From: Sulfitobacter guttiformis
GTDB taxonomy: Bacteria; Pseudomonadota; Alphaproteobacteria; Rhodobacterales; Rhodobacteraceae
Reading direction: 5' to 3'
DNA length: 64,000 nt
Assembly: GCF_003610455.1 (NCBI RefSeq)
Contig: NZ_RAQK01000001.1
Location: 2,232,001 to 2,296,000, forward strand
Of this stretch, positions 1 through 27,379 are shown one piece after another. Within the stretch, counting starts at the first letter, position 1. Every line of letters begins with the position of its first letter. The notes below the pieces were generated by a model. That model did no database searches. It saw only the letters and a program-made list of their open reading frames with translations, and was not told the origin of the DNA. The position numbers and the translations under genes are program-made.

Positions 1-95
1 TTGTCGTGCTGTGTCGCAAGAAACAACGTTATGAATGTCAAAACGACGAGTGCGATACAAAGCCCGCCAAAAACAAAAATGCTTGCACTGAACAT
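1..95 (-). CDS. Membrane protein, N-terminus only (cut by window edge)
   Basis: Only the first 31 codons are in the window. They read from an ATG at 95 and encode an almost uninterrupted hydrophobic segment (starting MFSASIFVFGG, ending LFLATQHD), so the product starts with a membrane helix. An AAGGAA ribosome-binding site lies 8 bases before the ATG. The start is 12 bases after the stop of the coiled-coil gene on the same strand, so it is very likely the third gene of the helicase / coiled-coil operon. The family cannot be decided from this much; an SPFH/band-7-like protein or a small channel-like protein would both fit. Confidence 0.5.
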   Translation of the reverse strand, partial: MFSASIFVFGGLCIALVVLTFITLFLATQHD

Positions 96-106
96 ATCTA
101 ATTTCC

Positions 107-1681
107 TTATTCGGGCGTAGTTGGTGCGTCGGGCACATCGGGTGGGCCATCAGGCGGCACAGTCAGGTCAGTCTGTGAATCGAGCTTTGCTTGCTGCTCC
201 GCGAGAAGCGCTGTGACTTTGTTGAGTTCAGTTTCGGCGGCTCTCTGTTCATTGCGCGCTATGCTTACCGCACCGGCTGCCACGGATATGTTGGCTCGCA
301 AGCCTGCAAGCTCCTCTCTGAGTGACAAAACCTCAGGGTCGAGAGCTCTCATTTGAGCCTCCAGAGTCAGAAATTCGTTTTGCAAGGTGGCCAGCTCGGA
401 AGCGCTGCGTGTCCTTTGTTGTTCCAGGACAGCCGCCTCCGCCTGTGATGTTGTTACCTGACGCTGTGCATCTTCCGCGTCGGCCCGGAGTGACGACAGC
501 TCATTGCGTGCCATCTGCACGTTCTGCGTGCGGGTGGTCACCTCTTCGTCCAAAGCTAATTTCTGTGCTTCAAGCTCAACGAGCCGCTGTTCGGCGTCTC
601 CGATCGCCGCCAAGCGAGCGGTCTGGGCCGCGACCTCTGCTGCCAGCCGTTCTGCCTCAGCCGCCAGCGTATCGCGATTTGCTGTGGCTGCCGCCATTGC
701 TTGCCGTTCCTCTGCTAGGGCCGAGGTCTGCGCGTTTAGCTGGCTATCCAGTCCAGCAAGACGCGCCTGCGCGCCGTCGGCCTGCGCATTCAAATCACTC
801 AAACTGGCCTCGGTGGTCCCTAGCTCCGCATCTACGCGTGCGCGCTGCTGCCTGAAGTCTGCAAGGGCCTCAGTGATGCTTGTTTGTTGAGCCCGCAGGC
901 TCTCTACCGAAGCATTTAGCTCTGACAGCTCGGACCGGCGCGCATTCACCTCAGTTTCAGCTGCCACGGCGCTTTGCTCGGTTGTCGAAATACGGCTCTC
1001 TATGTCCGCCAGATCAGCCGCCCTCACCTCCAGTCTGGCGAGCGTTGCGCTAACGCGCGCAAATTCTTCTGTCGCAGCCTTAAGCTCGGCGCGCTTGGCA
1101 TCAACGGCAGGATCAAGGCTTGATCGCTCTGTTCTGAGCGCTTGCACCTGATTTTCAAGTATGTCTCGGTCTGCGGAGAGGTCGGCGACGCCACGAGTGA
1201 GCGTATCGCGCTGGGTGGTGAGGTTGCTTATCTCGGTTGCGACGGTGCGCTTGGCATCGTTCAGCTGCCGCGTTTGCATCGCAACCTGCGCAGCTTCCTC
1301 CAGTGTCTCTTCAGCAGTCGCAAGCCTTTCATCGAGCCTGCCGATCTCCGCGTCCAGTGCATCGCGACGCGAAAGGGTTGCATCACGCTCCAAAGCAGCT
1401 GCATCGCGTTCCTCGCGGCTGCGTGCGATTTCGTCTTGCCGTTCGCTCAGCGCGCCTTGCAGGTTGGTCATTTCGGTGAGTAGATCATCGCGGCTTTTCC
1501 TCAAGCGGTCATTCTCGACAGTGAGATAGTCGATGTTACCCGCAATCTCACCAAATCGCTGGTTCAACCCGTTGACATGAAAACCCAAATAGGTGAGCCC
1601 GCCCACAGATATGACAGCAAGCACTGTAACGATTTTGGTATGAATGCGCGATTTACGCGAGGTCTCGTTCGACGATGTCAA
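107..1681 (-). CDS. Membrane-anchored long coiled-coil protein
   Basis: The product is about 524 aa. A short basic N-terminus (SRKSRIHTK) precedes one membrane helix at about residues 17-35. Almost 450 residues of uninterrupted heptad-type sequence follow (rich in E, R, A, L, Q and T, almost no proline), ending in a short proline-rich tail. It is therefore expected to be an inner-membrane protein with a long rod. The start is set at a TTG at 1681 because GGAGG lies six bases upstream, inside the end of the helicase gene; a TTG at 1705 has no such site. The two genes overlap by 29 bases, which implies translational coupling and a shared role. No enzymatic domain is visible. Rods of this type resemble the tails of ZorA-like proteins, but no MotA-type helices are present, so function is open. 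Confidence 0.72.
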   Translation of the reverse strand: MTSSNETSRKSRIHTKIVTVLAVISVGGLTYLGFHVNGLNQRFGEIAGNIDYLTVENDRLRKSRDDLLTEMTNLQGALSERQDEIARSREERDAAALERDATLSRRDALDAEIGRLDERLATAEETLEEAAQVAMQTRQLNDAKRTVATEISNLTTQRDTLTRGVADLSADRDILENQVQALRTERSSLDPAVDAKRAELKAATEEFARVSATLARLEVRAADLADIESRISTTEQSAVAAETEVNARRSELSELNASVESLRAQQTSITEALADFRQQRARVDAELGTTEASLSDLNAQADGAQARLAGLDSQLNAQTSALAEERQAMAAATANRDTLAAEAERLAAEVAAQTARLAAIGDAEQRLVELEAQKLALDEEVTTRTQNVQMARNELSSLRADAEDAQRQVTTSQAEAAVLEQQRTRSASELATLQNEFLTLEAQMRALDPEVLSLREELAGLRANISVAAGAVSIARNEQRAAETELNKVTALLAEQQAKLDSQTDLTVPPDGPPDVPDAPTTPE

Positions 1682-4600
1682 GGCATGCCTCCATATCCTT
1701 GGCAAGTTCGTCCACCCAGAAGCGGCGGACTTTCCAGCCTAGTGATTTCAGTTGATGGTCTCGCCAATGGTCTGATTGCTTTCTCTGACCATCAGTATTT
1801 TCATGGAAAAATCTTCCGTCTACCTCAAGGTCGAGCTTAACCCCGTTCGCACCGAAAAGTGCAAAGTCGAGTCGGCGACCTACGATTTCATATTGAGGTT
1901 GTGGAGTAAGTCCGCGTTTCTGGAGCGCATAGAAAACCCTGCGCTCCCAATCGCTATCAAACACGCCTTCACCGACACGTTTGCGAGGCTCGGTAGCTGC
2001 CGATGCAAGGGCCGCTAAACTGCGCACTTTGCCGCTGCGCGCATACTCAAGATCACCAAAGACGTGCGCAACAGCGCGAGCACGGGAAATCGCAACATTG
2101 AGACGTCTAAAGTCTTTTTGAAGGAAACCCACAGCAGACATCGGACTAGAGGGTCCCAGTGTTGGAGAAAACAGGATCACATCGCGCTCTTGGCCTTGGA
2201 AGCCATCAATGGTTGCGACTCTGAACTCAGCGGCCTCAAGCTTATGGTCAGGGACTTTGGCGCGCACGGCCTGTTCAATCGCATGCACCTGACCGCGGAA
2301 GGGCGAAGTCACTCCGACTGTTCCCTCGTATCCGTCTTTAAGCAACAAATTTTCGAGATGTTTCACGATAGCTGCAACTTCGGCTTTGTTCACATTATTG
2401 CCACTCTGCGCGAGTGGGGCGGCAACATGATCCCAAGCCAATCCCGGTTTTTGTCCCTTTGGCGGCTTGATGCTTTCAGGATTATAGGCTGTTTTTAGCG
2501 CTCCACCGTAAAACTCCCCACTGATATATTCGACAATTGTGCCAAAAGAGCGATACTGTTGGCGCAACATGATGCGTTCGGCACCCTGTGCCCTTTGGGC
2601 AAAATCAAAGAGCGAATTGCGGCTTTGTGCATAGCGGCTCATGGACGCCGCTGGAAGATTTTGCGCTTGCATCAAGTTGCGGTCCTGCGCCTGACTCAAC
2701 CCGGGAATGAAACTCAGTTGTCGATTATCACCCACGACAACTGCTCTGCGTGCTCTGGCGAATAAAGGAAGCGCAGATGCGATATCACACTGGCTGGCTT
2801 CATCAAAAATCACTAGGTCGAATAAGCCATCAATCAAAGGCAAACGCTTTGGGGCGCCTAGAACAGAAACGAGCCAAAGTGGACGAAGCTCGACAATTTC
2901 GTTCGAGGCATCCGGTGGCACTCTGGTTTTTGAGCCTGAAAAATCCATTTCGGATTTTGCATTGTCCAAGAGCTCCCAACTCTCAGCCGAAATAGATGTG
3001 CGATTGCTAAGGATTAGGGGGAGCAGCCGATTCGCAAGTTCTGCGATTTCGTTGGTAAGCTCTACGAGATCAGTATCGGTCTCAATTTCATCCCTCTCAA
3101 AGCGAAGACGGAAGATTTCATGTTCGATCTCTGCAATAGACCAAACTTTGACATTTTTCGGAGTTTCATCCGTTTGAGTCTTTCGGAATAAACTGAATAA
3201 CCAATCCAAAAATCGCGACCATGTGTTAAGTGGCTTCTCCACTGATGGCGGTTTTTCTGTATGGGAGGTCGTATACTTTTTACGGGCGTCCATGCGGTCA
3301 AGAAGCTCTGCTAGCTCACATTCAAATTGTGCGCGAAGGGCTGAACTTGCCATGCCGAGATCACGATCTTGAGACATTTGCTGAAGCTTATCGACGAGTA
3401 ATTGATCAACCGCGCGCCGCTGTCCTTGTCCTCCTGATACCAGTTCATTGAGCACAGTAGAAAATGACCGATCTACGTCTTTTTGTGGGTCCAGAGTCCG
3501 CACGATAAATGGCGCTTCTGCTGCTATGCTATCCAAACGTTCCTGCACCGCGTCCAGAGCCTGATGGTTCTTTGAAGCCACTACGACAGAGCCACCTGCC
3601 GCCAGAACAGACGCAGCCATCGATACAATTGCCTGAGACTTCCCGGTGCCCGGCGGACCGGTCACGACTGTGAGAGGTTTTTGACATGCTTGTTGAACCG
3701 CGCCAATTTGCTCTGCGTTGAGTGGCCCCACGTTGATTGTCGGTGTCGAGCCTTCGCTGGCAGCAGGATTTATCCCCAGTAAAGGTGCAAGCGCAGTGCT
3801 CGATAGCCTCGCCTCAGGCCAAGCAGCAATTTCGTCTAAGTCTCTGATTGCTCCGGCCGTGAAGCTGCTATCATTAGGCAGGAAAAGTGCTGCCGCATCA
3901 AAAATGCCCTCATTGGCAGTGTTCAATTCGCCCGCCAACCAATCACAAGTTATCTTTCCACGTATTTGCTTTGCTGATGAATCTCTTAAGCGCGCCAGAA
4001 ACTCATCTGTTTCCAATCCAACACCGTCAGTCTTTGCAAAGACATCGGCAAGCTCGTTGGCTTTCCAGCCTGTATTTCGCGCAGTGCCACGTAGCCATTC
4101 AGGATTGATCAGCACATCATTCGTCGAGACTTCGATTTCGAGATATCCATCTACTCTTCGCCAATCTGCCGTAATCAACCCTACGGGCCAGATCGCAGGA
4201 ACACCTGATTTGCGCCCGATGGCGATTGGCCAACCGATGGCCAGAGTGTTCTCATTTGCTTCACGCCTCAATAAAGCTGCCCGGAAATTCGGGGCAAGCG
4301 CTTCACTGTCGATCTTCATCACAGTCTTCTGACCATCGGCGGGAACAAACGGCCCTTTGCCAGCAATCAGTTGCCAATTGTCACCGTGTCGATCTGGCGT
4401 CTGTGTTGTGGCCCCACGCGGGTCTGACCGAAGCGCCGATCTCCAATATCGCAGCAGAGCTTGGGGATCGAGTCGGGTAGTATCCGTCGCTAAATCTTCA
4501 TCAAATGCAGGATCAGCATATTCTGCTGTCTGCTGCGAAAAGGGAGCAGCGACCAGTGTTTCTCCCTCCAAGTCTATGGAAGCGGGACTGCTCGTTAATG

Positions 4601-4808
4601 CCTGATCAAGTGACAGCACAGGTGGCGTGGCAGGTATCCATTTTCCATTTGAAAGCCGACGAATTGATCCAGTTGCGCAAAGAGCCTCGAGCTCCGAGAG
4701 AACTGTTAGCCTACCTTGAGCGTCGAAAGATCTGCCCAGAAGCGCATACAGTTCCTCAACTGTGCGGCCGCGTGGGAAAGCTCGAATGGTGTTCAGGACA
4801 ACAGACAT
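1653..4808 (-). CDS. SF1 (UPF1-like) helicase with C-terminal Vsr-like nuclease domain
   Basis: 1051 aa. Residues 1-60 look like a winged-helix domain. A long middle domain of unknown type precedes the ATPase. The Walker A motif GPPGTGKS is at about 384-391 and Walker B (VIFDEASQ) at about 666-673. QYRS, DGFQGQERD and NVAISRAR are helicase motifs IV-VI of the Dna2/UPF1 group (AAA_11/AAA_12). The last 90 residues (from DSDWERR) match the DUF559/MTES_1575 branch of Vsr-like PD-(D/E)xK nucleases; RRLDFALF followed by LDLEVDGRFFH supplies the acidic residues. A coiled and basic insert at about 480-590 splits the ATPase. Helicase-Vsr fusions are known from antiphage systems such as Hhe, but no HEPN domain is seen here. 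The gene heads a minus-strand operon, divergent from the type I restriction operon. The ATG at 4808 has only a weak ribosome-binding site. Confidence 0.85.
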   Translation of the reverse strand: MSVVLNTIRAFPRGRTVEELYALLGRSFDAQGRLTVLSELEALCATGSIRRLSNGKWIPATPPVLSLDQALTSSPASIDLEGETLVAAPFSQQTAEYADPAFDEDLATDTTRLDPQALLRYWRSALRSDPRGATTQTPDRHGDNWQLIAGKGPFVPADGQKTVMKIDSEALAPNFRAALLRREANENTLAIGWPIAIGRKSGVPAIWPVGLITADWRRVDGYLEIEVSTNDVLINPEWLRGTARNTGWKANELADVFAKTDGVGLETDEFLARLRDSSAKQIRGKITCDWLAGELNTANEGIFDAAALFLPNDSSFTAGAIRDLDEIAAWPEARLSSTALAPLLGINPAASEGSTPTINVGPLNAEQIGAVQQACQKPLTVVTGPPGTGKSQAIVSMAASVLAAGGSVVVASKNHQALDAVQERLDSIAAEAPFIVRTLDPQKDVDRSFSTVLNELVSGGQGQRRAVDQLLVDKLQQMSQDRDLGMASSALRAQFECELAELLDRMDARKKYTTSHTEKPPSVEKPLNTWSRFLDWLFSLFRKTQTDETPKNVKVWSIAEIEHEIFRLRFERDEIETDTDLVELTNEIAELANRLLPLILSNRTSISAESWELLDNAKSEMDFSGSKTRVPPDASNEIVELRPLWLVSVLGAPKRLPLIDGLFDLVIFDEASQCDIASALPLFARARRAVVVGDNRQLSFIPGLSQAQDRNLMQAQNLPAASMSRYAQSRNSLFDFAQRAQGAERIMLRQQYRSFGTIVEYISGEFYGGALKTAYNPESIKPPKGQKPGLAWDHVAAPLAQSGNNVNKAEVAAIVKHLENLLLKDGYEGTVGVTSPFRGQVHAIEQAVRAKVPDHKLEAAEFRVATIDGFQGQERDVILFSPTLGPSSPMSAVGFLQKDFRRLNVAISRARAVAHVFGDLEYARSGKVRSLAALASAATEPRKRVGEGVFDSDWERRVFYALQKRGLTPQPQYEIVGRRLDFALFGANGVKLDLEVDGRFFHENTDGQRKQSDHWRDHQLKSLGWKVRRFWVDELAKDMEACLDIVERDLA

Positions 4809-4995: not shown

Positions 4996-5072
4996 CCAAG
5001 ATCTTTGATGTAACTCTTACATTGTAGCCCGCTTTCCTGCTCCCTATGGTCCTCCAAAACAATGAGGTCACC

Positions 5073-6608
5073 ATGCTCACAGGCACCATCCGCTCCCAAG
5101 TTGATCAAATCTGGAACGCTTTCTGGTCGGGTGGCGTCTCCAATCCGCTCTCGGTGATCGAACAACTCACCTTCCTGATGTTCATCAAGCGGCTCGACGA
5201 TCTGCACACGCTGGCGGAGCGGAAGGCCGAAGACCTTGGCACCCCGATGGAGCGGCGGATTTTCCCAGAAGGCAAAGACGACAAGGGTGAGGCCTACAGC
5301 AACATGCGCTGGTCGCAGTTCAAACACTTCGAGGCGCGCGAGATGATGCGCATCGTGGATGAACACGTCTTCCCTTTCCTGCGCCAGCTGGGGGAGGAGG
5401 GCTCTTCCTACGGCACGCACATGAAGGATGCGCGGCTGGGCTTCTCCAACCCCAACCTGCTGGCCAAGGTGGTCCAAATGCTCGACGATATCGCGATGGA
5501 CGACCGCGATACCAAGGGCGACGTCTATGAATACATGCTGGGCAAGATCGCGAGCGCAGGGGCCAACGGCCAGTTCCGCACGCCGCGCCACATCATCCAG
5601 TTAATGGTGCACATCATGGCGCCCACGCCGACGGATACCATTTGCGACCCCGCCGCCGGCACTTCGGGCTTTTTGGTGCAGGCGGGGGAATACCTGCGCC
5701 AGAACCACCCGCAGATGTTGCGCAATGCGGAGCAGCGCGACCACTTCCACAATCACATGTTCCACGGTTTTGACTTCGACAGCACTATGCTGCGCATCGG
5801 GGCGATGAACATGACGCTGCACGGGATCGAGAACCCCGACATCTCCTACCGCGACAGCCTGGCAGAGGAGCATGGCGCGGACGCGGGCGCCTATTCCCTG
5901 ATCCTCGCCAATCCCCCCTTTGCCGGATCGCTGGACTATGACACCACGGCCAAGGATCTGCTCAAGATCGTGAAGACCAAAAAGACCGAGCTGCTGTTTA
6001 TGGGCCTCTTCCTGCGGCTGCTGCGCACGGGCGGGCGTGCGGCGGTGGTCGTCCCTGATGGCGTGCTCTTCGGGTCGTCCAGGGCGCACAAAGACATCCG
6101 CAAGATGCTGGTGGAGGATCACAAGCTCGACGCGATAATCAAACTGCCCTCGGGCGTGTTCCGCCCCTATGCGGGCGTGTCCTGCGCGATTGTCTTGTTT
6201 ACCAAGACGGGCGTGGGTGGCACGGGCGATGTGTGGTTCTACGACATGACCGCCGATGGCTACTCCCTTGATGACAAACGCACGGCCCTGCTCGACGAGG
6301 ACCGCATTGGTGCGACACCTGCCGCCACGCTGAGTGCGGAGGAGCACGCCAAAAACAACCTCCCCGATATTCTGGCCCGTTGGGGTGCGCTGGCGCAGGA
6401 GGGCGCACGCCCCCGCACCGCGCAAAGCTTTACCGTCCCCGCGGCAGAGATCATCGCGACCGGATCATGGGACCTCTCGCTCAACCGCTACAAAGAAATC
6501 GAGCACGCCGACGTCACCCATGCCGCCCCCGCCGACATCATCGCAGAGCTGCGCGCGCTGGAGGCAGAGATCGCCGAGGGGCTGGAGAAGCTGGAGGGGA
6601 TGTTGTGA
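5073..6608 (+). CDS. hsdM: Type I restriction-modification system, DNA methyltransferase subunit
   Basis: 511 aa from the ATG at 5073. GAGGTC just upstream serves as ribosome-binding site, and the N-terminus then matches family starts; an ATG at 5046 would add nine residues without a better site. Residues 1-130 form the HsdM N-terminal helical domain. DPAAGTSGF at 192-200 is the S-adenosylmethionine-binding motif and NPPF at 280-283 is the catalytic motif of adenine-N6 methylases. With HsdS it methylates the recognition site; with HsdR it forms the restriction complex. Its stop overlaps the hsdS start by one base (TGATG). Confidence 0.95.
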   Translation: MLTGTIRSQVDQIWNAFWSGGVSNPLSVIEQLTFLMFIKRLDDLHTLAERKAEDLGTPMERRIFPEGKDDKGEAYSNMRWSQFKHFEAREMMRIVDEHVFPFLRQLGEEGSSYGTHMKDARLGFSNPNLLAKVVQMLDDIAMDDRDTKGDVYEYMLGKIASAGANGQFRTPRHIIQLMVHIMAPTPTDTICDPAAGTSGFLVQAGEYLRQNHPQMLRNAEQRDHFHNHMFHGFDFDSTMLRIGAMNMTLHGIENPDISYRDSLAEEHGADAGAYSLILANPPFAGSLDYDTTAKDLLKIVKTKKTELLFMGLFLRLLRTGGRAAVVVPDGVLFGSSRAHKDIRKMLVEDHKLDAIIKLPSGVFRPYAGVSCAIVLFTKTGVGGTGDVWFYDMTADGYSLDDKRTALLDEDRIGATPAATLSAEEHAKNNLPDILARWGALAQEGARPRTAQSFTVPAAEIIATGSWDLSLNRYKEIEHADVTHAAPADIIAELRALEAEIAEGLEKLEGML

Positions 6609-7783
6609 TGAGCATCTCCGAAGTTAGAGAACTTGGCGATGTTGCTGATTTTTTGTCGGGGTTTGCTTGGAAAGCCAAGCAGTTTTCAGACGAGCCAACC
6701 GGGATGCCGATTATTCGCATACAAAATGTTGGCTCCGATGCATCGACAGCTTTTAAATATTGGCCGGACTCATTTGCGGATCGCTTTGTCATTTCAACAG
6801 GAGATCTTTTACTCACCTTGTCAGGAAGCTTTAGAACGGTCGTCTGGTCAGGACCTGATGCTCTACTTAATCAAAGAATAGTCAAAGTCACTCCACGAGT
6901 GAATACGGATACTCGATGGCTCTTTTACGCATTAGAGGAGGCAATGGCACGTATTGCAAAAATGGGCAGACATGCTTTGGTCAGCAATGTTGCGCTGAGC
7001 GATCTAAGGGAACTAAAGATCAATGTCCCACCACTAGAGGAGCAAAAGCGGATTGCGGGGATACTGGATCAGGCGGACGCGCTCCGCCGCCTGCGCACGC
7101 GCGCCCTCGGCAAACTCAACACCCTCGGCCAAGCGATTTTTCATGAGATGTTTGGGGATCCTGTTTCCAATGTTATTGGCTTCCAGCAGGTCCGATTTCA
7201 TGAGTTGGTGCCCCAAATTGACAGTGGTTGGAGCCCAAAGTGTCTTGACCGACCTGCGGACAGTGACGAGTGGGGCATTTTAAAACTATCAGCAGTCACC
7301 AGCGGAAGGTTCAGTGCATCAGAAAACAAAGCATTGCCTGACCATGAAACGCCAAAGGCGCAGCACGCTGTCAGAAAGGGTGATATCCTTTTTACCCGAA
7401 AGAACACCAAAGATCTGGTCGCGGCCACGGTGTTGGTGGACGCAGATCATAGCCGTCTACTGCTACCCGACCTGATCTTTCGGTTTCGGGTAGGTGACAG
7501 CAATTCCATCGATCCAGTCTATTTTCAGGCACTTTTGTCTTTCCCCACGAAGCGCCGCAGCATTCAAAAGCTTTCGGGCGGATCTGCTGGATCAATGCCT
7601 AATATCTCCAAAGCGAAACTTCGAGAGGTTCAAATCGAGCTTCCTCCGATTGACCAGCAACGGGAGTATTGCCGACGCATGGCTGCCGTTGAACAGGTCA
7701 ACACAATACAAGTCCATGAATTGCGAAAGACTGAAACCCTCTTCGCCTCCCTCCAACACGGCGCCTTTCGCGGGGAACTGTAA
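6608..7783 (+). CDS. hsdS: Type I restriction-modification system, specificity subunit
   Basis: 391 aa, with the ATG overlapping the hsdM stop. There are two target-recognition domains, at about residues 1-150 and 195-340. Each ends in a helical spacer: the first contains LEEQKRIAGILDQADALR, the second IDQQREYCRRMAAVEQV. These are the conserved regions that set the distance between the two half-sites and dock HsdM. The recognition domains have lower GC and more irregular codon use than hsdM, as usual for this fast-exchanging part of the system. The DNA site cannot be predicted from sequence alone. The gene appears intact and full-length. Confidence 0.94.
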   Translation: MSISEVRELGDVADFLSGFAWKAKQFSDEPTGMPIIRIQNVGSDASTAFKYWPDSFADRFVISTGDLLLTLSGSFRTVVWSGPDALLNQRIVKVTPRVNTDTRWLFYALEEAMARIAKMGRHALVSNVALSDLRELKINVPPLEEQKRIAGILDQADALRRLRTRALGKLNTLGQAIFHEMFGDPVSNVIGFQQVRFHELVPQIDSGWSPKCLDRPADSDEWGILKLSAVTSGRFSASENKALPDHETPKAQHAVRKGDILFTRKNTKDLVAATVLVDADHSRLLLPDLIFRFRVGDSNSIDPVYFQALLSFPTKRRSIQKLSGGSAGSMPNISKAKLREVQIELPPIDQQREYCRRMAAVEQVNTIQVHELRKTETLFASLQHGAFRGEL

Positions 7784-7922
7784 CCGCCTCACACTCTACG
7801 GTTGAGCGGACATCAATTCCGCCCTAACGTCTGTCCATGACAGGACTTTCCCCATGACCCAATTTGCCACTCCTGTTTAACTTCATCAGGCCTTGGCCAC
7901 CCCTTGTTCGTAGAGTGCCGCC

Positions 7923-10022
7923 ATGAAAGCCACCCATGCCCATCTTTTGAAGTTCATCAACAGCGCCACGCAATTCGTAATCCCGATTTACCAGCGCACC
8001 TATTCGTGGACCGAAAAGGAATGTCGCCAGCTGTGGAATGACGTGCGCAGGGCGGGCAACACGGATCATATTCCCGTGCATTTCCTTGGCTCGGTCGTCT
8101 ATGTCGAGGAAAGCCTGTCCAACGCCTCGGCTGGTGCGCCGCTGTTGGTTATCGACGGCCAGCAACGCCTGACCTCCGCCACGCTCCTGCTGGCCGCCCT
8201 TGCGCGTAAGGTGGGAGAAGATGAGCCTGTCGACGGCTTTTCCGCCAAAAAGATCCGCAACCGCTATCTCATCGATCCCGACGAGACGGGGGAGCGGCAG
8301 TTCAAGCTGTTGTTGTCAAAGACCGACCGGACAACGCTCAACGCCCTCGTGCGCGGCGACGAGTTGCCAGAGCCAAAATCCAAGCGCATTTCCGAGAATT
8401 TCGATTTGTTCGCCCGCTGGCTGGATCAGGACAAAGATGCTGTCACCGATATCTGCACAGGTCTGTCCAAGCTGATGATCGTCGATGTTGCCCTGAGCCG
8501 CGACCACGACAACCCCCAGCTGATTTTTGAAAGCATGAACTCGACAGGTCGCAAGCTGTCACAGGCAGACCTGATCCGCAACTTTGTGCTGATGGGGTTG
8601 GAGCCTGAACTTCAGACCCGTCTCTATGAGCAATATTGGCGGCGCATGGAGGAAGGCTTTGGCCAGTCCGCTTACGCGTCCCACTTTGACGGCTTCATGC
8701 GTCACTATCTAACGGTGGTCACAGGATCGATCCCGCGTTTGGATGACGTTTACGAGGCCTACAAAGCATATGCGCAGGAACAGCTCGCGACAGGCCGCAA
8801 CATTGAAGATTTGGTGCGCGAGGTATGGGAATATTCGCGCTATTTCGGCGCGATGGTTCTGGGGCAGGAAAAAGACCCCCACCTTTCCTTGGGGTTCAAT
8901 GACCTTCGTGAGCTGAAGGTAGATGTAGCTTATCCGTTCCTGCTCGAAGTCTACGGGGATTTTAAGGCCGAGAAATTGTCTGCCATCGAATTCGTCGAGA
9001 TCATCCGATTGGTCGAAGCCTATGTATTCCGACGCGCTATATGCGCCGTGCCGACCAACTCCATGAACAAGACATTCGCGACGTTCGGACGGTCCATCAA
9101 TAAGGACGCATATCTCGAAAGTGTGAAGGCGCAGTTCTTGATCCTCAAATCCTATCGCCGTTTCCCTGTGAATGACGAGTTCATCGCAAGAATACAGGAT
9201 CGTGACCTCTATAACTTCAGAAGCCGTGGCTACTGGCTCCGGAAGTTCGAGAACTTCGGGCGCAAAGAACGTGTTCATGTGGATGATTACACAATCGAAC
9301 ACATCATGCCGCAGAATGAGAATATGCCGCAGACATGGCGCGATGCGCTTGGAGAGAATTGGGCGGAAATTCAGGCAAAGTGGCTGCACACGCTCGGTAA
9401 CCTCACATTGACCGCCTACAACTCTGAATACAGCGACAAAAGCTTTGAGCACAAACGCGATATGGAAGGTGGATTTAAAGATAGTCCGCTGCGCGTCAGT
9501 CAAGGTCTCGCTCAGGTAGAGGCGTGGGATGAGAGCGCCATCAAGGCAAGGGCCGCAAAGATGGCCAAGCGGGCAGCGGAGGTCTGGTGCATGCCCGCAT
9601 TGCCTGAAGCAATATTGTCGGGCTATCGAAAGCCTGCTTCTATTGCATCTGAATACTCGATTGATGACCATCCTCATCTGGTAAGTGGTGAGATTAGTGG
9701 CTTGTTTGCTGATTTCCGCAGAGAGGTCAAAGCACTCGATCCATGTGTGACCGAACATTTCTTGAAGCTCTATGTCGCATATAAAGCTGAAACAAATTTC
9801 GTAGACGTCATTCCGCAAGCTAAATCGCTATTGGTATCACTGAAGATAGGCGTAGATGAACTAACCGATTCGCGTGAAATGGCCAGAGATGTCTCTGATC
9901 TTGGGCGTTGGGGAAATGGTCGAACAGAGGTCAAGCTGAGCGATCTTGCAGACCTTCCATATGTTCTGGGATTGGTTCGCCAGGCCCTTGATTTACAGTT
10001 GGGCTCGGAGGATGCCGCTTGA
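7923..10022 (+). CDS. DUF262-DUF1524-DUF5655 protein (GmrSD/SspE-like nuclease)
   Basis: 699 aa. The N-terminal DUF262 domain carries PIYQRTYSW at 21-29 and VIDGQQRLTS at about 76-85, the ParB-like nucleotide-binding and hydrolysis signature. A long helical middle follows. The DUF1524 domain at about 455-515 has EHIMPQN followed by LGNLTLT and the downstream lysine, the HNH-type nuclease pattern. The last 110 residues (FADFRREVKALDP, LYVAYKAETNFVDV, DLGRWGNG) match DUF5655. Relatives include GmrSD, which cuts modified DNA, and SspE, which responds to phosphorothioate DNA. The gene sits between hsdS and hsdR, and its TGA overlaps the TTG start of hsdR, so it is produced as part of the restriction operon. 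Whether it senses modified DNA here is inference. Confidence 0.92.
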   Translation: MKATHAHLLKFINSATQFVIPIYQRTYSWTEKECRQLWNDVRRAGNTDHIPVHFLGSVVYVEESLSNASAGAPLLVIDGQQRLTSATLLLAALARKVGEDEPVDGFSAKKIRNRYLIDPDETGERQFKLLLSKTDRTTLNALVRGDELPEPKSKRISENFDLFARWLDQDKDAVTDICTGLSKLMIVDVALSRDHDNPQLIFESMNSTGRKLSQADLIRNFVLMGLEPELQTRLYEQYWRRMEEGFGQSAYASHFDGFMRHYLTVVTGSIPRLDDVYEAYKAYAQEQLATGRNIEDLVREVWEYSRYFGAMVLGQEKDPHLSLGFNDLRELKVDVAYPFLLEVYGDFKAEKLSAIEFVEIIRLVEAYVFRRAICAVPTNSMNKTFATFGRSINKDAYLESVKAQFLILKSYRRFPVNDEFIARIQDRDLYNFRSRGYWLRKFENFGRKERVHVDDYTIEHIMPQNENMPQTWRDALGENWAEIQAKWLHTLGNLTLTAYNSEYSDKSFEHKRDMEGGFKDSPLRVSQGLAQVEAWDESAIKARAAKMAKRAAEVWCMPALPEAILSGYRKPASIASEYSIDDHPHLVSGEISGLFADFRREVKALDPCVTEHFLKLYVAYKAETNFVDVIPQAKSLLVSLKIGVDELTDSREMARDVSDLGRWGNGRTEVKLSDLADLPYVLGLVRQALDLQLGSEDAA

Positions 10023-13000
10023 CCCAATTCGCTTTCCTCGAAGCTGATTTCGCGGATATCGCCGCCTCCGCCCAAAAGGCGGAGAAGCTGGCCCTGTCGG
10101 ACCCGCGTGCCGCCTGTTTCTGGGCGCGCCTTACAGTAGAGACAGCGATGAAATGGCTCTACCGGAATGAGCCAGCCCTGCGCCAACCCTATGGCCGCGA
10201 ATTGGCGGCCCTGATCGCCGAGCCTACGTTCACCGCCCTCACGGGCCCCGCAATCGTCAAAAAGGCAGAGTTCATCAAGAACCACGGCAATCGTGCAGCC
10301 CACGACGACCGACGCCCACCATCCGCCCAGGACGCCGCAGCCACCGTGCGGGAGCTGTTCCATCTATGCTACTGGATCGCGCGCACCTACGCCCGCACAG
10401 CGCGGCCCGATCCTGCGCTTTCGTTTGATCTGACGAAGCTGGAAAAGTCGCTGACCATCAGCGCCAGCACCGTGGCGCAAATCCAAAAGGTCGAAAGCGA
10501 GATCAAGGCAGAGCGACAGCGTGCAGATGCAGCCGAGGCAGCACTCAAAACATCCGAAGAGGCGCACAGGACGGTCGAGGTCGAACGAGACGCCGCCCGC
10601 GCAGAGATCGCGGCCATTCGCAAAGCCAACCAGAAGATCCCAGACGATCACGACTATTCAGAAGCTGCCACACGCGACAGCTTCATCGACCAGTTGCTGA
10701 CCGAGGCGGGTTGGCCGCTCGATCAGGACCGCGACCGCGAATTTCCTGTGGAGGGAATGCCCAACAGCACCGGTCAAGGCTTTGTCGACTATGTGCTGTG
10801 GGGTGACGATGGCAAACCGCTGGCCCTGGTCGAGGCCAAGCGCAGCCGCAAGGACAGTCGCACCGGTCAGCAGCAAGCCAAGCTCTATGCCGATTGCCTT
10901 GAGGCGCGGTATGGGCGACGCCCGGTCATGTTCACCACCAACGGCTATGAACATTGGGTCTGGGACGACGTGATGTATCCCGCGCGGCGCATCTCAGGCT
11001 TTCTCAAGAAGGACGAGCTGCAACTGCTACACCAGCGCCGTGGCAATTTGAAAAAGCTGCGTGATGTGCCACTGGACGAGGATATCGCGGGACGTTTCTA
11101 TCAACAGCGTGCGATCCGCCGTGTGGGCGAGGCCTTCGAGAAGCATGCGCAGCGCAAGGCCTTGCTGGTCATGGCGACGGGCAGCGGCAAGACGCGCACG
11201 GTGATCGCCTTGGTCGATCAGTTGATGCGCGCCAACCGCGTCAAACGCGTGCTGTTTCTCGCGGACCGCATCGCACTGGTCAAACAAGCGCATGGGGCGT
11301 TCAAGGCCCATCTGGGTGCCACGCCTAGTGCTAACCTGATCGAGCGTCACGATCCGAAGAAAAACGACCACTCCGGTGCCCGTGTGTGTCTGTCGACCTA
11401 TCCAACCATGATGGGCTTGATCGAGCAGATGAACGGCGGCGAAAAGCGGTTCGGGCCAGGCCATTTCGACATGATCGTGATCGATGAGGCGCACCGTTCT
11501 GTTTATCGTAAATACCGCGCAATCTTCGAGTATTTCGACTGCCTGCTGGTCGGGCTGACAGCGACGCCCCGCGACGAAATCGACAAGGACACCTATTCCC
11601 TGTTCGATCTAGAAAAAGGGGTGCCAACGGACTCCTATGATTTGGATGACGCGGTTGACGACGGCTACCTGGTGCCGCCCAAGACGATCTCGGTCCCGCT
11701 TAAATTTCAACGCGAGGGCATCGATTACGATCAGCTCACCGACGACGAGAAAGAAGAGTGGGATGCGATCGAGTGGGACGAGGACGGCAGCGTCCCGGAC
11801 CGGGTGGAAAGCGCCGAGCTGAACAAGTGGCTGTTCAACATCGACACGGTCGACAAGGTGCTCGAGCATCTAATGCGGAACGGGATCAAGGTGGCTGGTG
11901 GCGATCGCTTGGGCAAGACGATCATCTTTGCGAAAAGCAGCAAGCATGCGCGGTTCATCGTTGAACGATTCAACATCAACTACCCACACTACAAAGGCCA
12001 GTTCGCCCAGTTGATCGACTACAGCGTCACCTACGCGCAATCCCTGATCGATGACTTTTCCGAACCGGAGAAATCGCCGCAAATCGCCGTATCGGTCGAT
12101 ATGCTGGATACGGGCATCGATGTGCCTGAAGTGGTCAATCTGGTTTTCTTCAAGATCGTCAGATCCAAGACGAAGTTCTGGCAAATGGTGGGTCGCGGCA
12201 CTCGCCTGTCGCCCGATCTGTTTGGGCCGGGTGAGGACAAATCAGAGTTTGTCATCTTCGACTTCTGCCAGAACCTGGAGTTCTTCAAGGAGAACCCGGA
12301 TGTGTCGGACAATTCCGGCGCCCTTCCGATTGGCCAACGGCTCTTTGTGACGCGGGTTGAGCTCATCGATGCACTGTCCGGAGCAGAAACATCTCACGAG
12401 GGCCTGATCGCCGACACCAAGAAGCGGCTGTTTGACGAAGTGAGCGCCATTCCGATGGAGAACTTCATCGTGCGCGCCAAGCGGCGCAATGTGGAGCGGT
12501 TCCAAAATCCGGATGAATGGGCAGACCTTGATCTCGATGCGCGACTCGCACTCACCGACGACGTTGCGGGTCTGCCCACAGCCTTTGATGACGGCTCACT
12601 GCCAGCGAAGCAATTTGATCTTTTGATTTTCAATGCCCAGTTACAGCTGCTCAAGATGGCAGCAGGTTTCACGGGGCTGCAAAAGCGGATCGTTCAGTTT
12701 GCGTCAAATCTGGAAACGCTTTCAAACGTCCCTATGGTTGCAAAAGAACTTGAGCTGATCCTTGAGATACAGACCGAGACGTTCTGGGAAGACATCACGG
12801 TAGAAATCCTTGACGCTGTGCGCCGCAGATTGAGAGACCTTGCGGAGTTGATCGAGCCGAAGGAACGCAAGGACATCATCACCAATTTTGCTGATGAGAT
12901 CGGAGCGGGTGGGGTTCTCGAGATGCCTGACATCGGCAGCGGCGTCGACAAGGCGAAGTTCAAGATGAAGGTGCGCCGCTTCCTGGAGCAGCAGCGCGAT

Positions 13001-13414
13001 CATATCACCCTGATGAAAGTGAAACGAGGCGAGGCCCTGACCAAGCAAGATCTGTCTGAGCTGGAACGCTTCCTGGTCGAGAATGGCGTCGCCGACGAGA
13101 TCTCGATGAATGGCCTAGCCGAGGAGGGCGGCTTGGGCCGCTTTCTGCGATCCCTGACCGGATTGGACCGCGGCGCTGCAAAGGGCGCCTTTAGCGCCTT
13201 CGTTGCACGGCATGAGCTGACGGCAGACCAGACGGAGTTCTTGGATTTAGTCATCGACAGCCTGACCGAGAGTGGCATTGTAGACCCAAAAGTCTTCTAT
13301 GAGAGCCCATACACCGACCTCGATGACATGGGCATCGCCGGAGTGTTTGATCGCGATCAGACGCAGGAGATTATCAAGATCGTCAGGACGCTGAATGATG
13401 CTGTCGCGGCTTGA
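10019..13414 (+). CDS. hsdR: Type I restriction-modification system, restriction/translocase subunit with DUF4145 N-terminus
   Basis: 1131 aa from a TTG at 10019 that overlaps the preceding stop (TTGA). Residues 1-125 form a DUF4145-type helical, HEPN-related domain. A coiled coil follows at about 155-205. The HsdR nuclease domain has D257 in FVDYVL and VEAKR at 271-275. The motor has Walker A ATGSGKT at 386-392 and DEAH at 489-492, then a helicase C domain ending in the GRGTRLSPDL motif. The C-terminal 300 residues match the EcoEI R C-terminal domain. With HsdM and HsdS it translocates DNA and cleaves unmethylated targets. The architecture is the usual one for EcoEI-type enzymes and all key motifs are intact. 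Confidence 0.95.
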   Translation: MTQFAFLEADFADIAASAQKAEKLALSDPRAACFWARLTVETAMKWLYRNEPALRQPYGRELAALIAEPTFTALTGPAIVKKAEFIKNHGNRAAHDDRRPPSAQDAAATVRELFHLCYWIARTYARTARPDPALSFDLTKLEKSLTISASTVAQIQKVESEIKAERQRADAAEAALKTSEEAHRTVEVERDAARAEIAAIRKANQKIPDDHDYSEAATRDSFIDQLLTEAGWPLDQDRDREFPVEGMPNSTGQGFVDYVLWGDDGKPLALVEAKRSRKDSRTGQQQAKLYADCLEARYGRRPVMFTTNGYEHWVWDDVMYPARRISGFLKKDELQLLHQRRGNLKKLRDVPLDEDIAGRFYQQRAIRRVGEAFEKHAQRKALLVMATGSGKTRTVIALVDQLMRANRVKRVLFLADRIALVKQAHGAFKAHLGATPSANLIERHDPKKNDHSGARVCLSTYPTMMGLIEQMNGGEKRFGPGHFDMIVIDEAHRSVYRKYRAIFEYFDCLLVGLTATPRDEIDKDTYSLFDLEKGVPTDSYDLDDAVDDGYLVPPKTISVPLKFQREGIDYDQLTDDEKEEWDAIEWDEDGSVPDRVESAELNKWLFNIDTVDKVLEHLMRNGIKVAGGDRLGKTIIFAKSSKHARFIVERFNINYPHYKGQFAQLIDYSVTYAQSLIDDFSEPEKSPQIAVSVDMLDTGIDVPEVVNLVFFKIVRSKTKFWQMVGRGTRLSPDLFGPGEDKSEFVIFDFCQNLEFFKENPDVSDNSGALPIGQRLFVTRVELIDALSGAETSHEGLIADTKKRLFDEVSAIPMENFIVRAKRRNVERFQNPDEWADLDLDARLALTDDVAGLPTAFDDGSLPAKQFDLLIFNAQLQLLKMAAGFTGLQKRIVQFASNLETLSNVPMVAKELELILEIQTETFWEDITVEILDAVRRRLRDLAELIEPKERKDIITNFADEIGAGGVLEMPDIGSGVDKAKFKMKVRRFLEQQRDHITLMKVKRGEALTKQDLSELERFLVENGVADEISMNGLAEEGGLGRFLRSLTGLDRGAAKGAFSAFVARHELTADQTEFLDLVIDSLTESGIVDPKVFYESPYTDLDDMGIAGVFDRDQTQEIIKIVRTLNDAVAA

Positions 13415-14239: not shown

Positions 14240-14962
14240 CTATGTGCTCGTCAGAATCCGCATGGCCTTAGAACGCGGTGCCCGGATCGAGCCCTTCGTC
14301 CAGGGGACCATCTCCGAACCATTGATCTGGTTCAAGACACCCATGCTATTCAGCGACTGGCTTAGATCCTTGTGGGTGAGAGAAAGCAGCCTCGGATGGG
14401 TCCGGAGGATTTCGGCCAAGTGTTTCACTTTCCTATCTGCCCGAGCCCTGTTGCGCGCGCACCCATTGTGTTGAGCAATGTGTAGGGTGGAACGGTTGCC
14501 CAGCTTTTGCCCCTTGGCCCGACGTTCGGCTGCGGAAATCCGAGCACCTTCACTGATAGCTTTTGACTCTCTAGCGGCCTCAGTGATCAGTTCCTTCAGA
14601 CGCTCCAGCGTTACCCGTCCCTGATCTAGCGAGTAGATCTTGACGCCTTTCAACAAGGGCAGAACTTCAAGGCTGCGAGACAAACGATCGACGCGCACAA
14701 TAACAAGCGTGCCCTTTGTTGTCTGAGCCTCTTGCACTGCAGCGTGGAGAACAGAACGATGCGCCGACGATTTTGATGCACTTTGGGTCTCAACATGAAG
14801 GCTCAGCGTCGCCTTCGGGGTGTTTTGAACATATGAGCGTATACGTTGTTCCTGAACCTCAAGGCTCAGGTTCTCATCGGCTTGCCTTCTGGTCGATACA
14901 CGTATCAGCCCAATGAAGTGTTTGATGCGAGAACGTTCAGGTGTTTCGATTATAGCGTTCAT
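14240..14962 (-). CDS. Serine recombinase (resolvase/invertase family)
   Basis: 240 aa; AGGAGA precedes the ATG at 14962. Residues 14-115 form the resolvase catalytic domain: the nucleophile is Ser23 in GLIRVSTRRQ, and VRVDRLSRS at about 88-96 gives the catalytic arginines. The remaining 120 residues contain a helical, arginine-rich region (ISAAERRAKGQKLGNRS) leading to a short DNA-binding tail. It is too short to be a large serine integrase. It would cut and rejoin DNA at a nearby site; the identical repeats on both sides are candidates. It may move or invert a small segment inside the island. Confidence 0.85.
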   Translation of the reverse strand: MNAIIETPERSRIKHFIGLIRVSTRRQADENLSLEVQEQRIRSYVQNTPKATLSLHVETQSASKSSAHRSVLHAAVQEAQTTKGTLVIVRVDRLSRSLEVLPLLKGVKIYSLDQGRVTLERLKELITEAARESKAISEGARISAAERRAKGQKLGNRSTLHIAQHNGCARNRARADRKVKHLAEILRTHPRLLSLTHKDLSQSLNSMGVLNQINGSEMVPWTKGSIRAPRSKAMRILTST

Positions 14963-18496: not shown

Positions 18497-19330
18497 TCAC
18501 GTTCCAGCGTCGCCCTCTGTTTCAATCTTCAATGGCTCGCCACAGTGCTTGCAGTGAATTGCATCTGGCTCATGTCGGTTCAGGCCGCATTCCGGGCATT
18601 TATGCTTGATCTTGGACGGCTGGAAGATGGCGCGTGCCAATTGCACAAAAAGTGCAACGCCAACGACCATAATAAACACTGACAACAGCTTTCCGCCGGG
18701 TGTCGTCATGGTGATATCGCCAAAACCTGTCGTGGTGAGTGTCGCTACCGTGAAATAGAGCGCGTCTACGTAGCCGACGATGCCGGCCCCTTCATCGAAG
18801 GCCAGCACAAAGACGAACGATGTGGTCACGAAAATAAAGACGAATAGGTTTACCGCTGCAAGTATTGCGTCTTCGTGGCGGCGGAAGAATAGGCTCTCGC
18901 GCCGAAGGTCACTCAACAGGTGATATGCGTGGATCAGCCTCAGGCCCCTCAGCACGCGCAGGAAGGCGAGGTTCTCGGTGATCAGTGGCGCCAGCAGCAG
19001 TGACAGCACGACGACCAGATCCGCGAGGGTATAAATGCGCGTCAGTTCCCGGCGCAGGTTCTCTGAGATCCAGAACCGGGCCGCGAGATCCAGAAGTATG
19101 AGCAGGCCGAGCCCTGTGTTTAGAGCCGTCATGACCGGTGTGGCGGGTATTGCAGCTGCTGCGATGAAATAGACTATGGTCATCGCATCGAAGACGATAA
19201 GCCCATAGCGAAACCGTCGGGCACGCTTGCTTTGACCAGTATAGAGCAATCTGATTGTTCGGCGCAGTTCTTCCATTTGTGCAAGATGCCACAGGTTTGC
19301 GCTCGGCACCATCTGCAGAAACCAGGACAT
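18497..19330 (-). CDS. Voltage-gated-like potassium channel with C-terminal zinc ribbon
   Basis: About 277 aa, inner membrane. Six hydrophobic segments can be seen. The fourth contains regularly spaced arginines (VLRGLRLIHAYHLL), as in an S4 voltage sensor. The pore loop TVATLTTTGFGDI has the selectivity filter as GFGD rather than GYGD. The last 40 residues carry CPECGLNRHEPDAIHCKHCG, a four-cysteine zinc ribbon that is unusual on such channels. The start is uncertain: the ATG at 19330 was chosen, but ATGs at 19312 and 19276 are also possible and none has a strong ribosome-binding site. It stands alone on its strand between gene-poor stretches. Confidence 0.85.
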   Translation of the reverse strand: MSWFLQMVPSANLWHLAQMEELRRTIRLLYTGQSKRARRFRYGLIVFDAMTIVYFIAAAAIPATPVMTALNTGLGLLILLDLAARFWISENLRRELTRIYTLADLVVVLSLLLAPLITENLAFLRVLRGLRLIHAYHLLSDLRRESLFFRRHEDAILAAVNLFVFIFVTTSFVFVLAFDEGAGIVGYVDALYFTVATLTTTGFGDITMTTPGGKLLSVFIMVVGVALFVQLARAIFQPSKIKHKCPECGLNRHEPDAIHCKHCGEPLKIETEGDAGT

Positions 19331-19549
19331 TCGTATGAACAAAATCTAGGTGCCCATATTGGGACAAGCTGGCGCCAACAATTTCTTGACCTGAGAGGAA
19401 TGACATTCTTCTGTGGCGACTCAAGTTATAAGGGCGCAACAACCGAGTGCCGCAAACTATTTTCAATTCCGAGGGAAATTGAACGTTCGCTAAGTATGAT
19501 CCCGAACGACCGTTCTGGCCGTTCCTGACACTGGCGCGGACGTGGGATA

Positions 19550-25593: not shown

Positions 25594-27213
25594 CTATTCC
25601 GACCCAACAACATAATCCGGAAGGCTGCCAATTGCGTTGATTTTGGTTAGCAGAGTTACATCTCCGTAGTGATCACCTGCGGTTCTTGATGCGTGTCCGG
25701 TGATCCCATCAATTACCCGATCTTCAATTCGTGCCTCTCTTGCGAATGTCTTGAAATGGTGTCGCCAGCCGTGGTTGGGCAGGACCCCTTTTACTGTGAG
25801 GTTGTTACGCGTCATCCACTTTCTAAGTTTTGCAGCACTTGCCTCTGCCGCCTTAAGTGCGCTTGCACCTGGCCTTGCCACATAAAACAGTGGCCCGACT
25901 GTCTGCCGGACGAAGGTATCAAAGCCCATTTTGATCAGCTGTGGGTGGACCGGCACATCACGGTATTCGCCGGTCTTGACGGTCCCTGCATCCGGTGAAA
26001 TGCGCAGCACCATTGTTTCACCTTCCCACCTGACATCCTCCCGACGCATTTGCGTCATTTCAACAACGCGGGCACCGGTAAATGCGCAAAGCCATGGCAC
26101 CCACCGGCGTGTTGCAATGCTCTGCGCAGGTTCGGCCCCATTTGCTTCAGTTCTTTGCTCGGATGATGCTGCCTTCAGGATGCGAACTGCCTCCTCTCGG
26201 GTATACCCCTTCTCACGGATACGGATATTCTTTGGCAATTCCTGTTTGACAGTTGCCGCTACATTTGTTGGCAAGATGTCATGCTCGACTGCCCAGCTCA
26301 GGACGGCTTGAATGCTACTAAGGTAGACCTTCTTGACTGTGCTTTGCGCCAGAGTATCTAATTTTTCGTCTCGCCAACGAACAATATCAGCTTTTGTGAT
26401 TACCCGTGCATCGTTGTGACCCAAAAAGCGAATGAGATCGGTAATTACTGGCTGCCAGCGTTTTGGCAGACTCTTCCCCTTGCCAAGCTTTTGTCTACCG
26501 TTGAGATATTGGTCGAAGAGCGATTGTAGTGGGACGTTTTTTGCTGGGGCTTCTGGGGCCAGTGGGGCCGGGAGGGCCGTCTCAACCTGCAGAAGCGGCG
26601 GTATCGTTGGCGCAATGATGAAATCAGGTGCTGGCCGCCCCGAAAAGTCGCCCTCATCTCTCTCGGCTGCACGCGCCATAGCTTCGTATTCTGACCTGCA
26701 CAGCGCCATGGCCAGCAGACGCCACTCGCGGGAGCCGAATTGTGCTTTTGTTCGTCCTAGATGCTTGTATCGCTTAACCCGTCCGACAACCAGGACGGCA
26801 AGCTTCCCGTCTTCCAGTAGTCCTGAGTAGCCGCGCTTGAGAAGTGTGGCCAACTGATCATCCACCCCTACCTGCGCATATAGATGCGTTGTTTCCCGAA
26901 GCTCCGTATCAAAGGCGAGCCGGTCCAGATAGTTGTCAGTAGCGATCTGCTGGATACTCCAAGTGTCTACCGGCGCTACTGGCGCGAGTTTTTTCTCAGC
27001 GGCATCCCGACATTGCTGTTCCGCCTCATCGAGTCTCATCTGAAGCACAGCAATCTCGATGGTGTGCTGTGCGATCGCTTTACGACGGTCACCGCCCAGT
27101 GCGGTGCGGAGTTCGGTTTTATTCCCAAGGTAAGGCCGCAGTCTTTCCGGCACAGAAATGCGGGAAAAGTAACGACCTTCGCGATCCAGAAAGTTCTTGA
27201 TCTTACCCGCCAC
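25594..27213 (-). CDS. Tyrosine recombinase (site-specific integrase of the island)
   Basis: 539 aa from a GTG at 27213 with CGGAG eight bases upstream. The N-terminal 45 residues (FLDREGRYFSRISVPERLRPYL) match DUF6538, common on integrases of alphaproteobacterial islands. A SAM-like core-binding domain spans about 226-320. The catalytic domain shows Arg382 (FTGARVVEMT), His481 and Arg484 (HGWRHHF), His507 (ITGH) and nucleophile Tyr516 (DHYGDV). All catalytic residues are present, so the enzyme should be active. It starts 92 bases from the 3' end of tRNA-Thr, the classical position of an island integrase next to its attachment site. Confidence 0.95.
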   Translation of the reverse strand: MAGKIKNFLDREGRYFSRISVPERLRPYLGNKTELRTALGGDRRKAIAQHTIEIAVLQMRLDEAEQQCRDAAEKKLAPVAPVDTWSIQQIATDNYLDRLAFDTELRETTHLYAQVGVDDQLATLLKRGYSGLLEDGKLAVLVVGRVKRYKHLGRTKAQFGSREWRLLAMALCRSEYEAMARAAERDEGDFSGRPAPDFIIAPTIPPLLQVETALPAPLAPEAPAKNVPLQSLFDQYLNGRQKLGKGKSLPKRWQPVITDLIRFLGHNDARVITKADIVRWRDEKLDTLAQSTVKKVYLSSIQAVLSWAVEHDILPTNVAATVKQELPKNIRIREKGYTREEAVRILKAASSEQRTEANGAEPAQSIATRRWVPWLCAFTGARVVEMTQMRREDVRWEGETMVLRISPDAGTVKTGEYRDVPVHPQLIKMGFDTFVRQTVGPLFYVARPGASALKAAEASAAKLRKWMTRNNLTVKGVLPNHGWRHHFKTFAREARIEDRVIDGITGHASRTAGDHYGDVTLLTKINAIGSLPDYVVGSE

Positions 27214-27304
27214 GATTCACTCCGTTCTGTTACGCGTTTTGTAACATCGAGACGGACAAAGCCCCATACGGTCAAGGGGATTAAATGATATCAGGGGGTT
27301 GTCA

Positions 27305-27379
27305 TGGTGCTGTTGGGGAGGATTGAACTCCCGACCTCGTCATTACCAATGACGCGCTCTACCACTGAGCTACAACAGC
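27305..27379 (-). tRNA. tRNA-Thr (GGT anticodon)
   Basis: Reading the minus strand, the acceptor stem GCTGTTG/CAACAGC pairs fully. The D stem is GCTC/GAGC, the anticodon stem CGTCA/TGACG with loop TTGGTAA gives anticodon GGT, and the T stem is GGGAG/CTCCC with loop TTCAATC. The CCA end is encoded. Total length 75 bases. Its 3' end faces the integrase, so the attachment core is probably within the T arm and acceptor stem. Confidence 0.97.

Follow-up and report, generated by a model that had tools for sequence, protein, structure and literature searches.

In Type III-B CoCoNuT, as described by Bell et al. 2024 (PMC11090510), a Vsr effector is fused directly to CnuH, whose N-terminus is described with a winged helix-turn-helix (wHTH) and an OB fold. 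The description gives CnuA as a separate protein with a coiled coil and no other recognizable domain, CnuB as an NxD GTPase with an N-terminal coiled coil, CnuC as a DUF2357 protein with an inactivated PD-(D/E)xK fold and an N-terminal Ig-like beta-sandwich, and CnuD as a separate protein with Hsp70-like (NBD/SBD) and HEAT-like parts. According to the same paper the subtype lacks TerY-P, occurs mainly in Alphaproteobacteria, and has an antiviral function by prediction. Here we analyze an operon at the left edge of a 64,000-nucleotide stretch of the Sulfitobacter guttiformis genome (contig NZ_RAQK01000001.1, positions 2,232,001 to 2,296,000; hereafter the window). We consider it very probable, from gene content and predicted folds, that its five genes constitute a Type III-B CoCoNuT, McrBC-derived and Type IV restriction-like; this confidence applies to the assignment and not to each step of the mechanism proposed below. 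An earlier, sequence-only reading had presented the locus as an undescribed defence system. That claim fails because the full operon matches a subtype already named in PMC11090510, and the new point that survives is a membrane-like segment in CnuA and CnuB.

Gene content of the operon

The operon is cut by the window edge. Extension into the DNA left of the window (L002, where a position equals the window position + 15000) completed cnuB and added cnuC and cnuD, giving five genes in the order H-A-B-C-D (aa, amino acids):

1653..4808, minus strand: cnuH, 1051 aa; UPF1-like SF1 helicase with a C-terminal Vsr/MTES_1575 nuclease
107..1681, minus strand: cnuA, 524 aa; N-terminal transmembrane-like segment followed by a long coiled coil
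1..95, minus strand: 5' end of cnuB; whole gene L002:13080-15095, 671 aa; McrB-like NxD GTPase
L002:11581-13080, beyond the window, minus strand: cnuC, 499 aa; McrC-like DUF2357 protein
L002:9206-11596, beyond the window, minus strand: cnuD, 796 aa; Hsp70-like

The TTG start of cnuA overlaps the cnuH stop by 29 nt, cnuB starts at 95 (minus strand), 11 nt past the cnuA stop, and the last two junctions are overlaps of 1 and 4 nt; cnuD encodes 792 aa if read from an internal ATG that overlaps the cnuC stop as ATGA. Because the spacing is tight throughout the operon, a single transcript is likely. The coordinates and lengths first read for the helicase and the 524-aa rod hold, as does the coupling of the two genes; the rod combines an N-terminal membrane-like segment with a coiled coil. 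A third gene had been placed 12 bases further on and called a membrane protein; a gene does start there, but its product is an McrB-like GTPase with one hydrophobic segment.

CnuH matched the Pfam families AAA_12 (1e-32), AAA_11 and, at residues 955-1047, the MTES_1575/DUF559 nuclease (7e-13). The fusion of helicase and Vsr-like nuclease was found with Pfam in 42/42 CnuH sequences, and in these 42 sequences the nuclease residues D981, E995, D997 and H1002 are invariant. CnuA is a separate coiled-coil protein with no other recognizable domain apart from the transmembrane-like segment. Its coiled coil matches SMC, Rad50 and LmuB coiled-coil models, below curated cut-offs where such exist, and contains 2 prolines in 432 residues. 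The 3.5-residue hydrophobic periodicity of CnuA, compared with 40 shuffles, is weak in this copy (z = 1.8) and ranges from 2.0 to 10.2 in 19 homologues.

CnuB is an McrB-like AAA+ GTPase that carries a single N-terminal hydrophobic segment and, supported by matches to coiled-coil models, a coiled coil; when the whole CnuB profile was compared with PDB, the matches were confined to this coiled-coil part. The NxD motif reads MNEDE in 18/18 aligned sequences, and Walker A/B are intact. DUF2357 is present in 35/35 CnuC sequences, which lack a conserved [DE]xK motif. The CnuC profile gave no credible match to PDB sequences; the predicted structure model of CnuC matches McrC chains over residues 89-496 and has N-terminal strands at 2-4, 26-29, 39-46 and 49-55. 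CnuD is separate and has a predicted Hsp70 NBD/SBD fold, the model being almost wholly helical from about residue 500 onward; its profile gave no match to PDB sequences at E 1. For both proteins the structure comparisons were read from VIA-align lists, where a family that is absent is not thereby excluded. No TerY-P gene was present among the proteins scanned with Pfam. Together these results show that every decisively testable feature of Type III-B is matched by the five genes.

Comparison with other named systems

The operon shares with Type III-B CoCoNuT the gene set, the separate CnuA and CnuD, the Vsr-CnuH fusion, the NxD GTPase, the McrC-like protein without nuclease motif and the alphaproteobacterial relatives. 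PADLOC 2023 and NCBIfam gave no full-length named system, the best PADLOC matches being partial (PDC-S37, Mokosh and Hhe for CnuH; PDC-M26A for CnuB), which would favor a membrane-rod defence system that is new and not related to any described one. Set against the agreement of all five genes with the published gene set in every decisively testable feature, such a system is extremely unlikely.

The separation from Hhe and Zorya, proposed from the sequence alone, was borne out by the profile tests run. Hhe shares with CnuH a matching helicase and Vsr-like region; CnuH scored 118 bits against an Hhe model with a cut-off of 2000 bits, its best stretch being 634-1045, and no match of Hhe length was obtained. 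The CnuH matches to Mokosh and PDC-S37 were likewise limited to the helicase/Vsr part. Zorya contains a membrane protein with a long tail. No MotA/ExbB was found in CnuA, and the CnuB coiled coil matched ZorA weakly (E 0.061). Druantia I/II (Type IV CoCoNuT) requires a YprA-like helicase and an inactive CnuB homologue, whereas here the helicase is UPF1-like and CnuB keeps Walker A/B and NxD; weak matches were seen for CnuH (DpdJ model, E 1.1e-4) and for the CnuA coiled coil (DruC, E 8e-4). CoCoPALM shares a GTPase with a transmembrane and coiled-coil N-terminus and differs in its link to signal-peptidase/pilus genes (PMC11090510), none of which is among the five operon genes.

N-terminal segments of CnuA and CnuB

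Membrane-like segments were scored as 19-residue windows with a mean hydropathy of at least 1.6 within the first 120 residues of proteins with complete N-termini; CnuA of L103 and CnuB of L098, which start at contig ends, are omitted from the counts. The segment was present in 18/19 CnuA proteins (range 1.54-2.43, with L113 just below the threshold at 1.54) and in 21/21 CnuB proteins (2.29-3.44), and two rhizobial systems have it in both. Across the eight loci compared, no such segment was present at the N-terminus of CnuC, CnuD or CnuH. An internal window reaching 1.6 or more occurs in individual CnuC and CnuD copies, and a segment near the P-loop of CnuH reaches 1.61-2.21 in the seven loci with a whole CnuH. 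Because these windows also score, hydropathy alone is no proof that CnuA spans the membrane. The CnuA segment is encoded past the stretch shared with cnuH, so that its conservation is not a by-product of the gene overlap.

In the main text of PMC11090510 the word "transmembrane" occurs six times, one of them in the reference list and none for III-B CnuA or CnuB, and "membrane" at the start of a word is absent. Word searches of that main text, and literature searches, thus returned no description of the CnuA and CnuB segments. Relative to this text it is a new, modest point that both proteins carry an N-terminal transmembrane-like segment and look anchored. We consider it probable that CnuA and CnuB are both membrane anchored. 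If so, this would narrow the possible workings of the III-B branch of McrBC-derived systems, because an McrB-type ring anchored there would work where phages or plasmids enter the cell.

The segment was also compared between subtypes, those of the following plasmids being assigned here from the description in PMC11090510, with few cases (one III-C, three III-A). The III-C-like system of Synechocystis pSYSX (NC_005232.1, L130) shares an NxD GTPase with an N-terminal hydrophobic segment (2.39) and a DUF2357 protein, and differs in having a PLD-family protein in place of Vsr and another gene order. The III-A-like systems of Phytobacter, Caballeronia and Enterobacter plasmids (L131-L133) share an NxD GTPase, an AAA-domain protein and a DUF2357 protein; they differ in a kinase gene upstream, a DUF2357 protein of 1104-1348 aa and a CnuB without the segment (-0.24, -0.45 and -0.24, two of the three sharing identical GTPase domains). 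A Lactococcus AAA protein also has no segment (0.77), and the NxD motif was not found in it by the pattern used. In a GTPase tree (16 rows, 15 different) a split with support of 98/98 separates the III-B-like rows from those resembling III-A and III-C, on long branches and with no III-B reference sequence of PMC11090510 included. If the anchoring is real, the segment may be a simple trait that separates III-B and III-C from III-A.

Charges were counted in the 20 residues on each side of the segment. The net charge in CnuA is more positive before than after the segment in 19/19 proteins; when K/R alone are counted, more lie before it in 15/19, the proteins of L009, L105, L116 and L117 going against this pattern. 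CnuB has no K/R before the segment and at least one after it (21/21). These flanks weakly suggest that CnuA and CnuB are inserted in opposite orientation. In a more elaborate arrangement, which we consider rather unlikely, the system would span the envelope with the CnuA N-terminus inside and the rod periplasmic, and with CnuB reversed and its GTPase cytosolic; the rod might then sense the attachment of a phage, the injection of DNA or stress on the envelope, and the signal would pass via paired membrane helices to CnuH and the CnuB/CnuC ring.

Predicted mechanism and its target

The operon is best read as a membrane-tethered McrBC-type helicase-nuclease system. Its genes are of defence type, as first proposed, and its presumed anti-phage role would fit the following scheme. 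CnuC, McrC-like and with its nuclease centre lost, would activate the CnuB GTPase ring. Foreign or aberrant RNA, or RNA-coupled DNA, would be recognised by CnuD, with its predicted Hsp70 fold, together with the CnuH N-terminus, the UPF1-like motor of CnuH would move along the strand, and its Vsr-like domain would cut. The assembly would probably be held at the inner membrane by the N-terminal helices of CnuA and CnuB. The Vsr domain is likely the cutting part because CnuC has no nuclease motif; it is the sole one of the operon's two nuclease folds that keeps conserved acidic residues in place.

We lean towards RNA or RNA-coupled DNA as the target. The same system could act on another one, the CnuB/CnuC ring and CnuH degrading invading DNA, not RNA, at the membrane entry site, a reading that differs in the target alone. 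The CnuH motor (residues ~363-919) gave profile matches to a 5'-3' RNA helicase-like protein, SEN1, UPF1/NAM7, SMUBP-2 and DNA2. The matches to DNA2 and SMUBP-2 are in line with a DNA target, as is the finding that the thresholds used revealed no HEPN domain in any of the five proteins, and anchoring at the membrane would be in keeping with DNA entry. The motor, however, is best matched by RNA helicases, including SEN1 and UPF1, and PMC11090510 argues that the Hsp70-like CnuD favors RNA binding and states that such nucleases are able to degrade RNA. We regard a DNA target as possible, on the doubtful side of even.

Several observations weigh against the assignment and the tethered, RNA-directed mechanism. 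Neither section 9 of PMC11090510 nor literature searches yielded an experiment on Type III-B. The GTPase domain of CnuB has just a sub-threshold AAA_5 match, and PDB profile searches with CnuB returned no McrB, the GTPase domain giving two weak shikimate kinase matches. The McrC fold of CnuC and the Hsp70 fold of CnuD come from predicted models. No Pfam family covers CnuH residues 1-359 among the matches listed, and the CnuA segment is of middling strength, the segment in the P-loop region of CnuH scoring as high.

Conservation of the operon

CnuC homologues were found in 11/394 genomes of the family sample, 10/390 of the order, 1/385 of the class and 2/398 of the phylum; these samples overlap and each includes the source genome. 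In a scan of contigs 80 of 349 relative stretches were kept, of which L006-L012 contain the operon; the remaining 73 are, by title, mostly from Bacteroidota (27-36% identity). A total of 24 loci were compared and 23 counted, L097 being dropped as a duplicate of L006 with the same contig and gene lengths. The order H-A-B-C-D is kept in 19/23; among the remaining four, contig ends truncate L098 and L103, L101 is truncated with a split CnuB, and L118 is broken. In L011 the contig end cuts CnuH at its 5' end, in L012 CnuB is split into two open reading frames (ORFs), and CnuA of L104-L106 was assigned from its position and length and not from a sequence match. The same order was found on IMG/VR contig L127 and on plasmid p2 of R. 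leguminosarum, where a Shedu gene adjoins the operon.

The coiled-coil gene adjoins cnuH in all 19 loci with a close CnuH (at least 48% identity), a count that is biased because 11 of the 19 were found through CnuC. The proposed link between helicase and rod does not extend to distant homologues, which occur in three further genomes of the 385 in the class sample at E 1e-60. HMMER aligns them over residues 638-1046 (39-41% identity), and BLAST extends one (L004/L137) to 230-1046 (30%). ORFs of at least 150 aa in the 17.0, 19.9 and 5.5 kb around them contained neither a match to CnuA-CnuD nor the MN.DE GTPase motif. Since these three homologues lack the other CoCoNuT genes over that range, the helicase-Vsr architecture is not tied to the rod; it also occurs apart from CoCoNuT, which counts against it as a mark of this system.

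Some loci deviate individually. CnuC and CnuD form one open frame of 1292 aa at L101:3190-7068, like the III-A CnuCD fusion, and a sequencing indel is possible there. L118:11734-15078 is a degraded remnant with broken CnuC and CnuD, and with no match to CnuH, CnuA or CnuB in the 11.7 kb upstream. On R. tropici pRtrCIAT899b (L129:942-5583) an IS21 pair directly precedes the annotated CnuH, which has only 732 aa; this suggests disruption. A second SF1 helicase-like protein of 1147 aa lies upstream of the CoCoNuT at L105:13845-17288 (27% identity over residues 663-958). The gene for the distant helicase-Vsr protein at L137:7310-11394 (1105 aa) overlaps at its 3' end a same-strand ORF of 275 aa that is poor in prolines; no other CoCoNuT gene was matched there.

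Genomic context

A perfect 30-bp repeat, which matches the 3' end of tRNA-Thr, marks the two ends of an element of about 34 kb that contains the operon. This places a complete Type III-B CoCoNuT in a mobile element with defined ends. The tRNA island and the divergent restriction operon of the sequence-only reading were both confirmed:

L002:8220-8249: left repeat, identical 30 bp, about 6.8 kb left of the window
5046..13414, plus strand: type I restriction operon HsdM-HsdS-GmrSD/DUF5655-HsdR (Pfam), divergent from the CoCoNuT
25594..27213, minus strand: tyrosine integrase-like protein adjoining tRNA-Thr; PF00589 25.2 bits (cut-off 27.1), NF040815 32.4 bits (cut-off 220)
27304..27333: right repeat, 30 bp, tRNA-Thr 3' end
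27305-27379, minus strand: tRNA-Thr

A DNA query for the empty site matched relatives in its right part alone, and the site was then sought through protein matches. In the congeners L120, L121 and L122 (3/7 loci) aroA and the left-flank gene surround a tRNA-Thr match at a distance of no more than about 1.5 kb from each other, without the element. L123-L126, of about 3 kb each, contain aroA alone, with no left-flank gene within these loci. CnuC had no match in at least 15 other genomes of the genus.

The position inside a mobile element, and the occurrence of the operon on rhizobial plasmids, would also fit a function for the element itself, such as maintenance or the exclusion of rival elements, in place of phage defence. 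The neighbours speak against this, being often of defence type: the type I restriction-modification genes with GmrSD here and in L114, GmrSD in L006, a methylase and ResIII in L008, BrxL in L012, ResIII in L115 and Shedu in L128. We consider an element function improbable and prefer phage defence. In L114 HsdM-HsdS-GmrSD follow the CoCoNuT in the same order as here, in one of the 22 other loci compared, many of which have few kb of flank. A scan of 20 of the 82 flanking ORFs of at least 200 aa, which is not a census, gave a defence-type Pfam name for 5/20, another name for 10/20 and none at 1e-6 for 5/20. The other flanking genes are partly metabolic (proline dehydrogenase in L007; sulfatase and TctA in L012).

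Within the restriction operon, the GmrSD/DUF5655 gene between HsdS and HsdR occupies window 7923-10022. Further inside the element, a recombinase of the resolvase type and a DUF927 protein that weakly matches the SCCmec Cch1 helicase model are encoded at window 14240-14962 and 15117-16874, and window 18497-19342 encodes an ion-channel protein whose C-terminus may form a zinc ribbon (match below cut-off).

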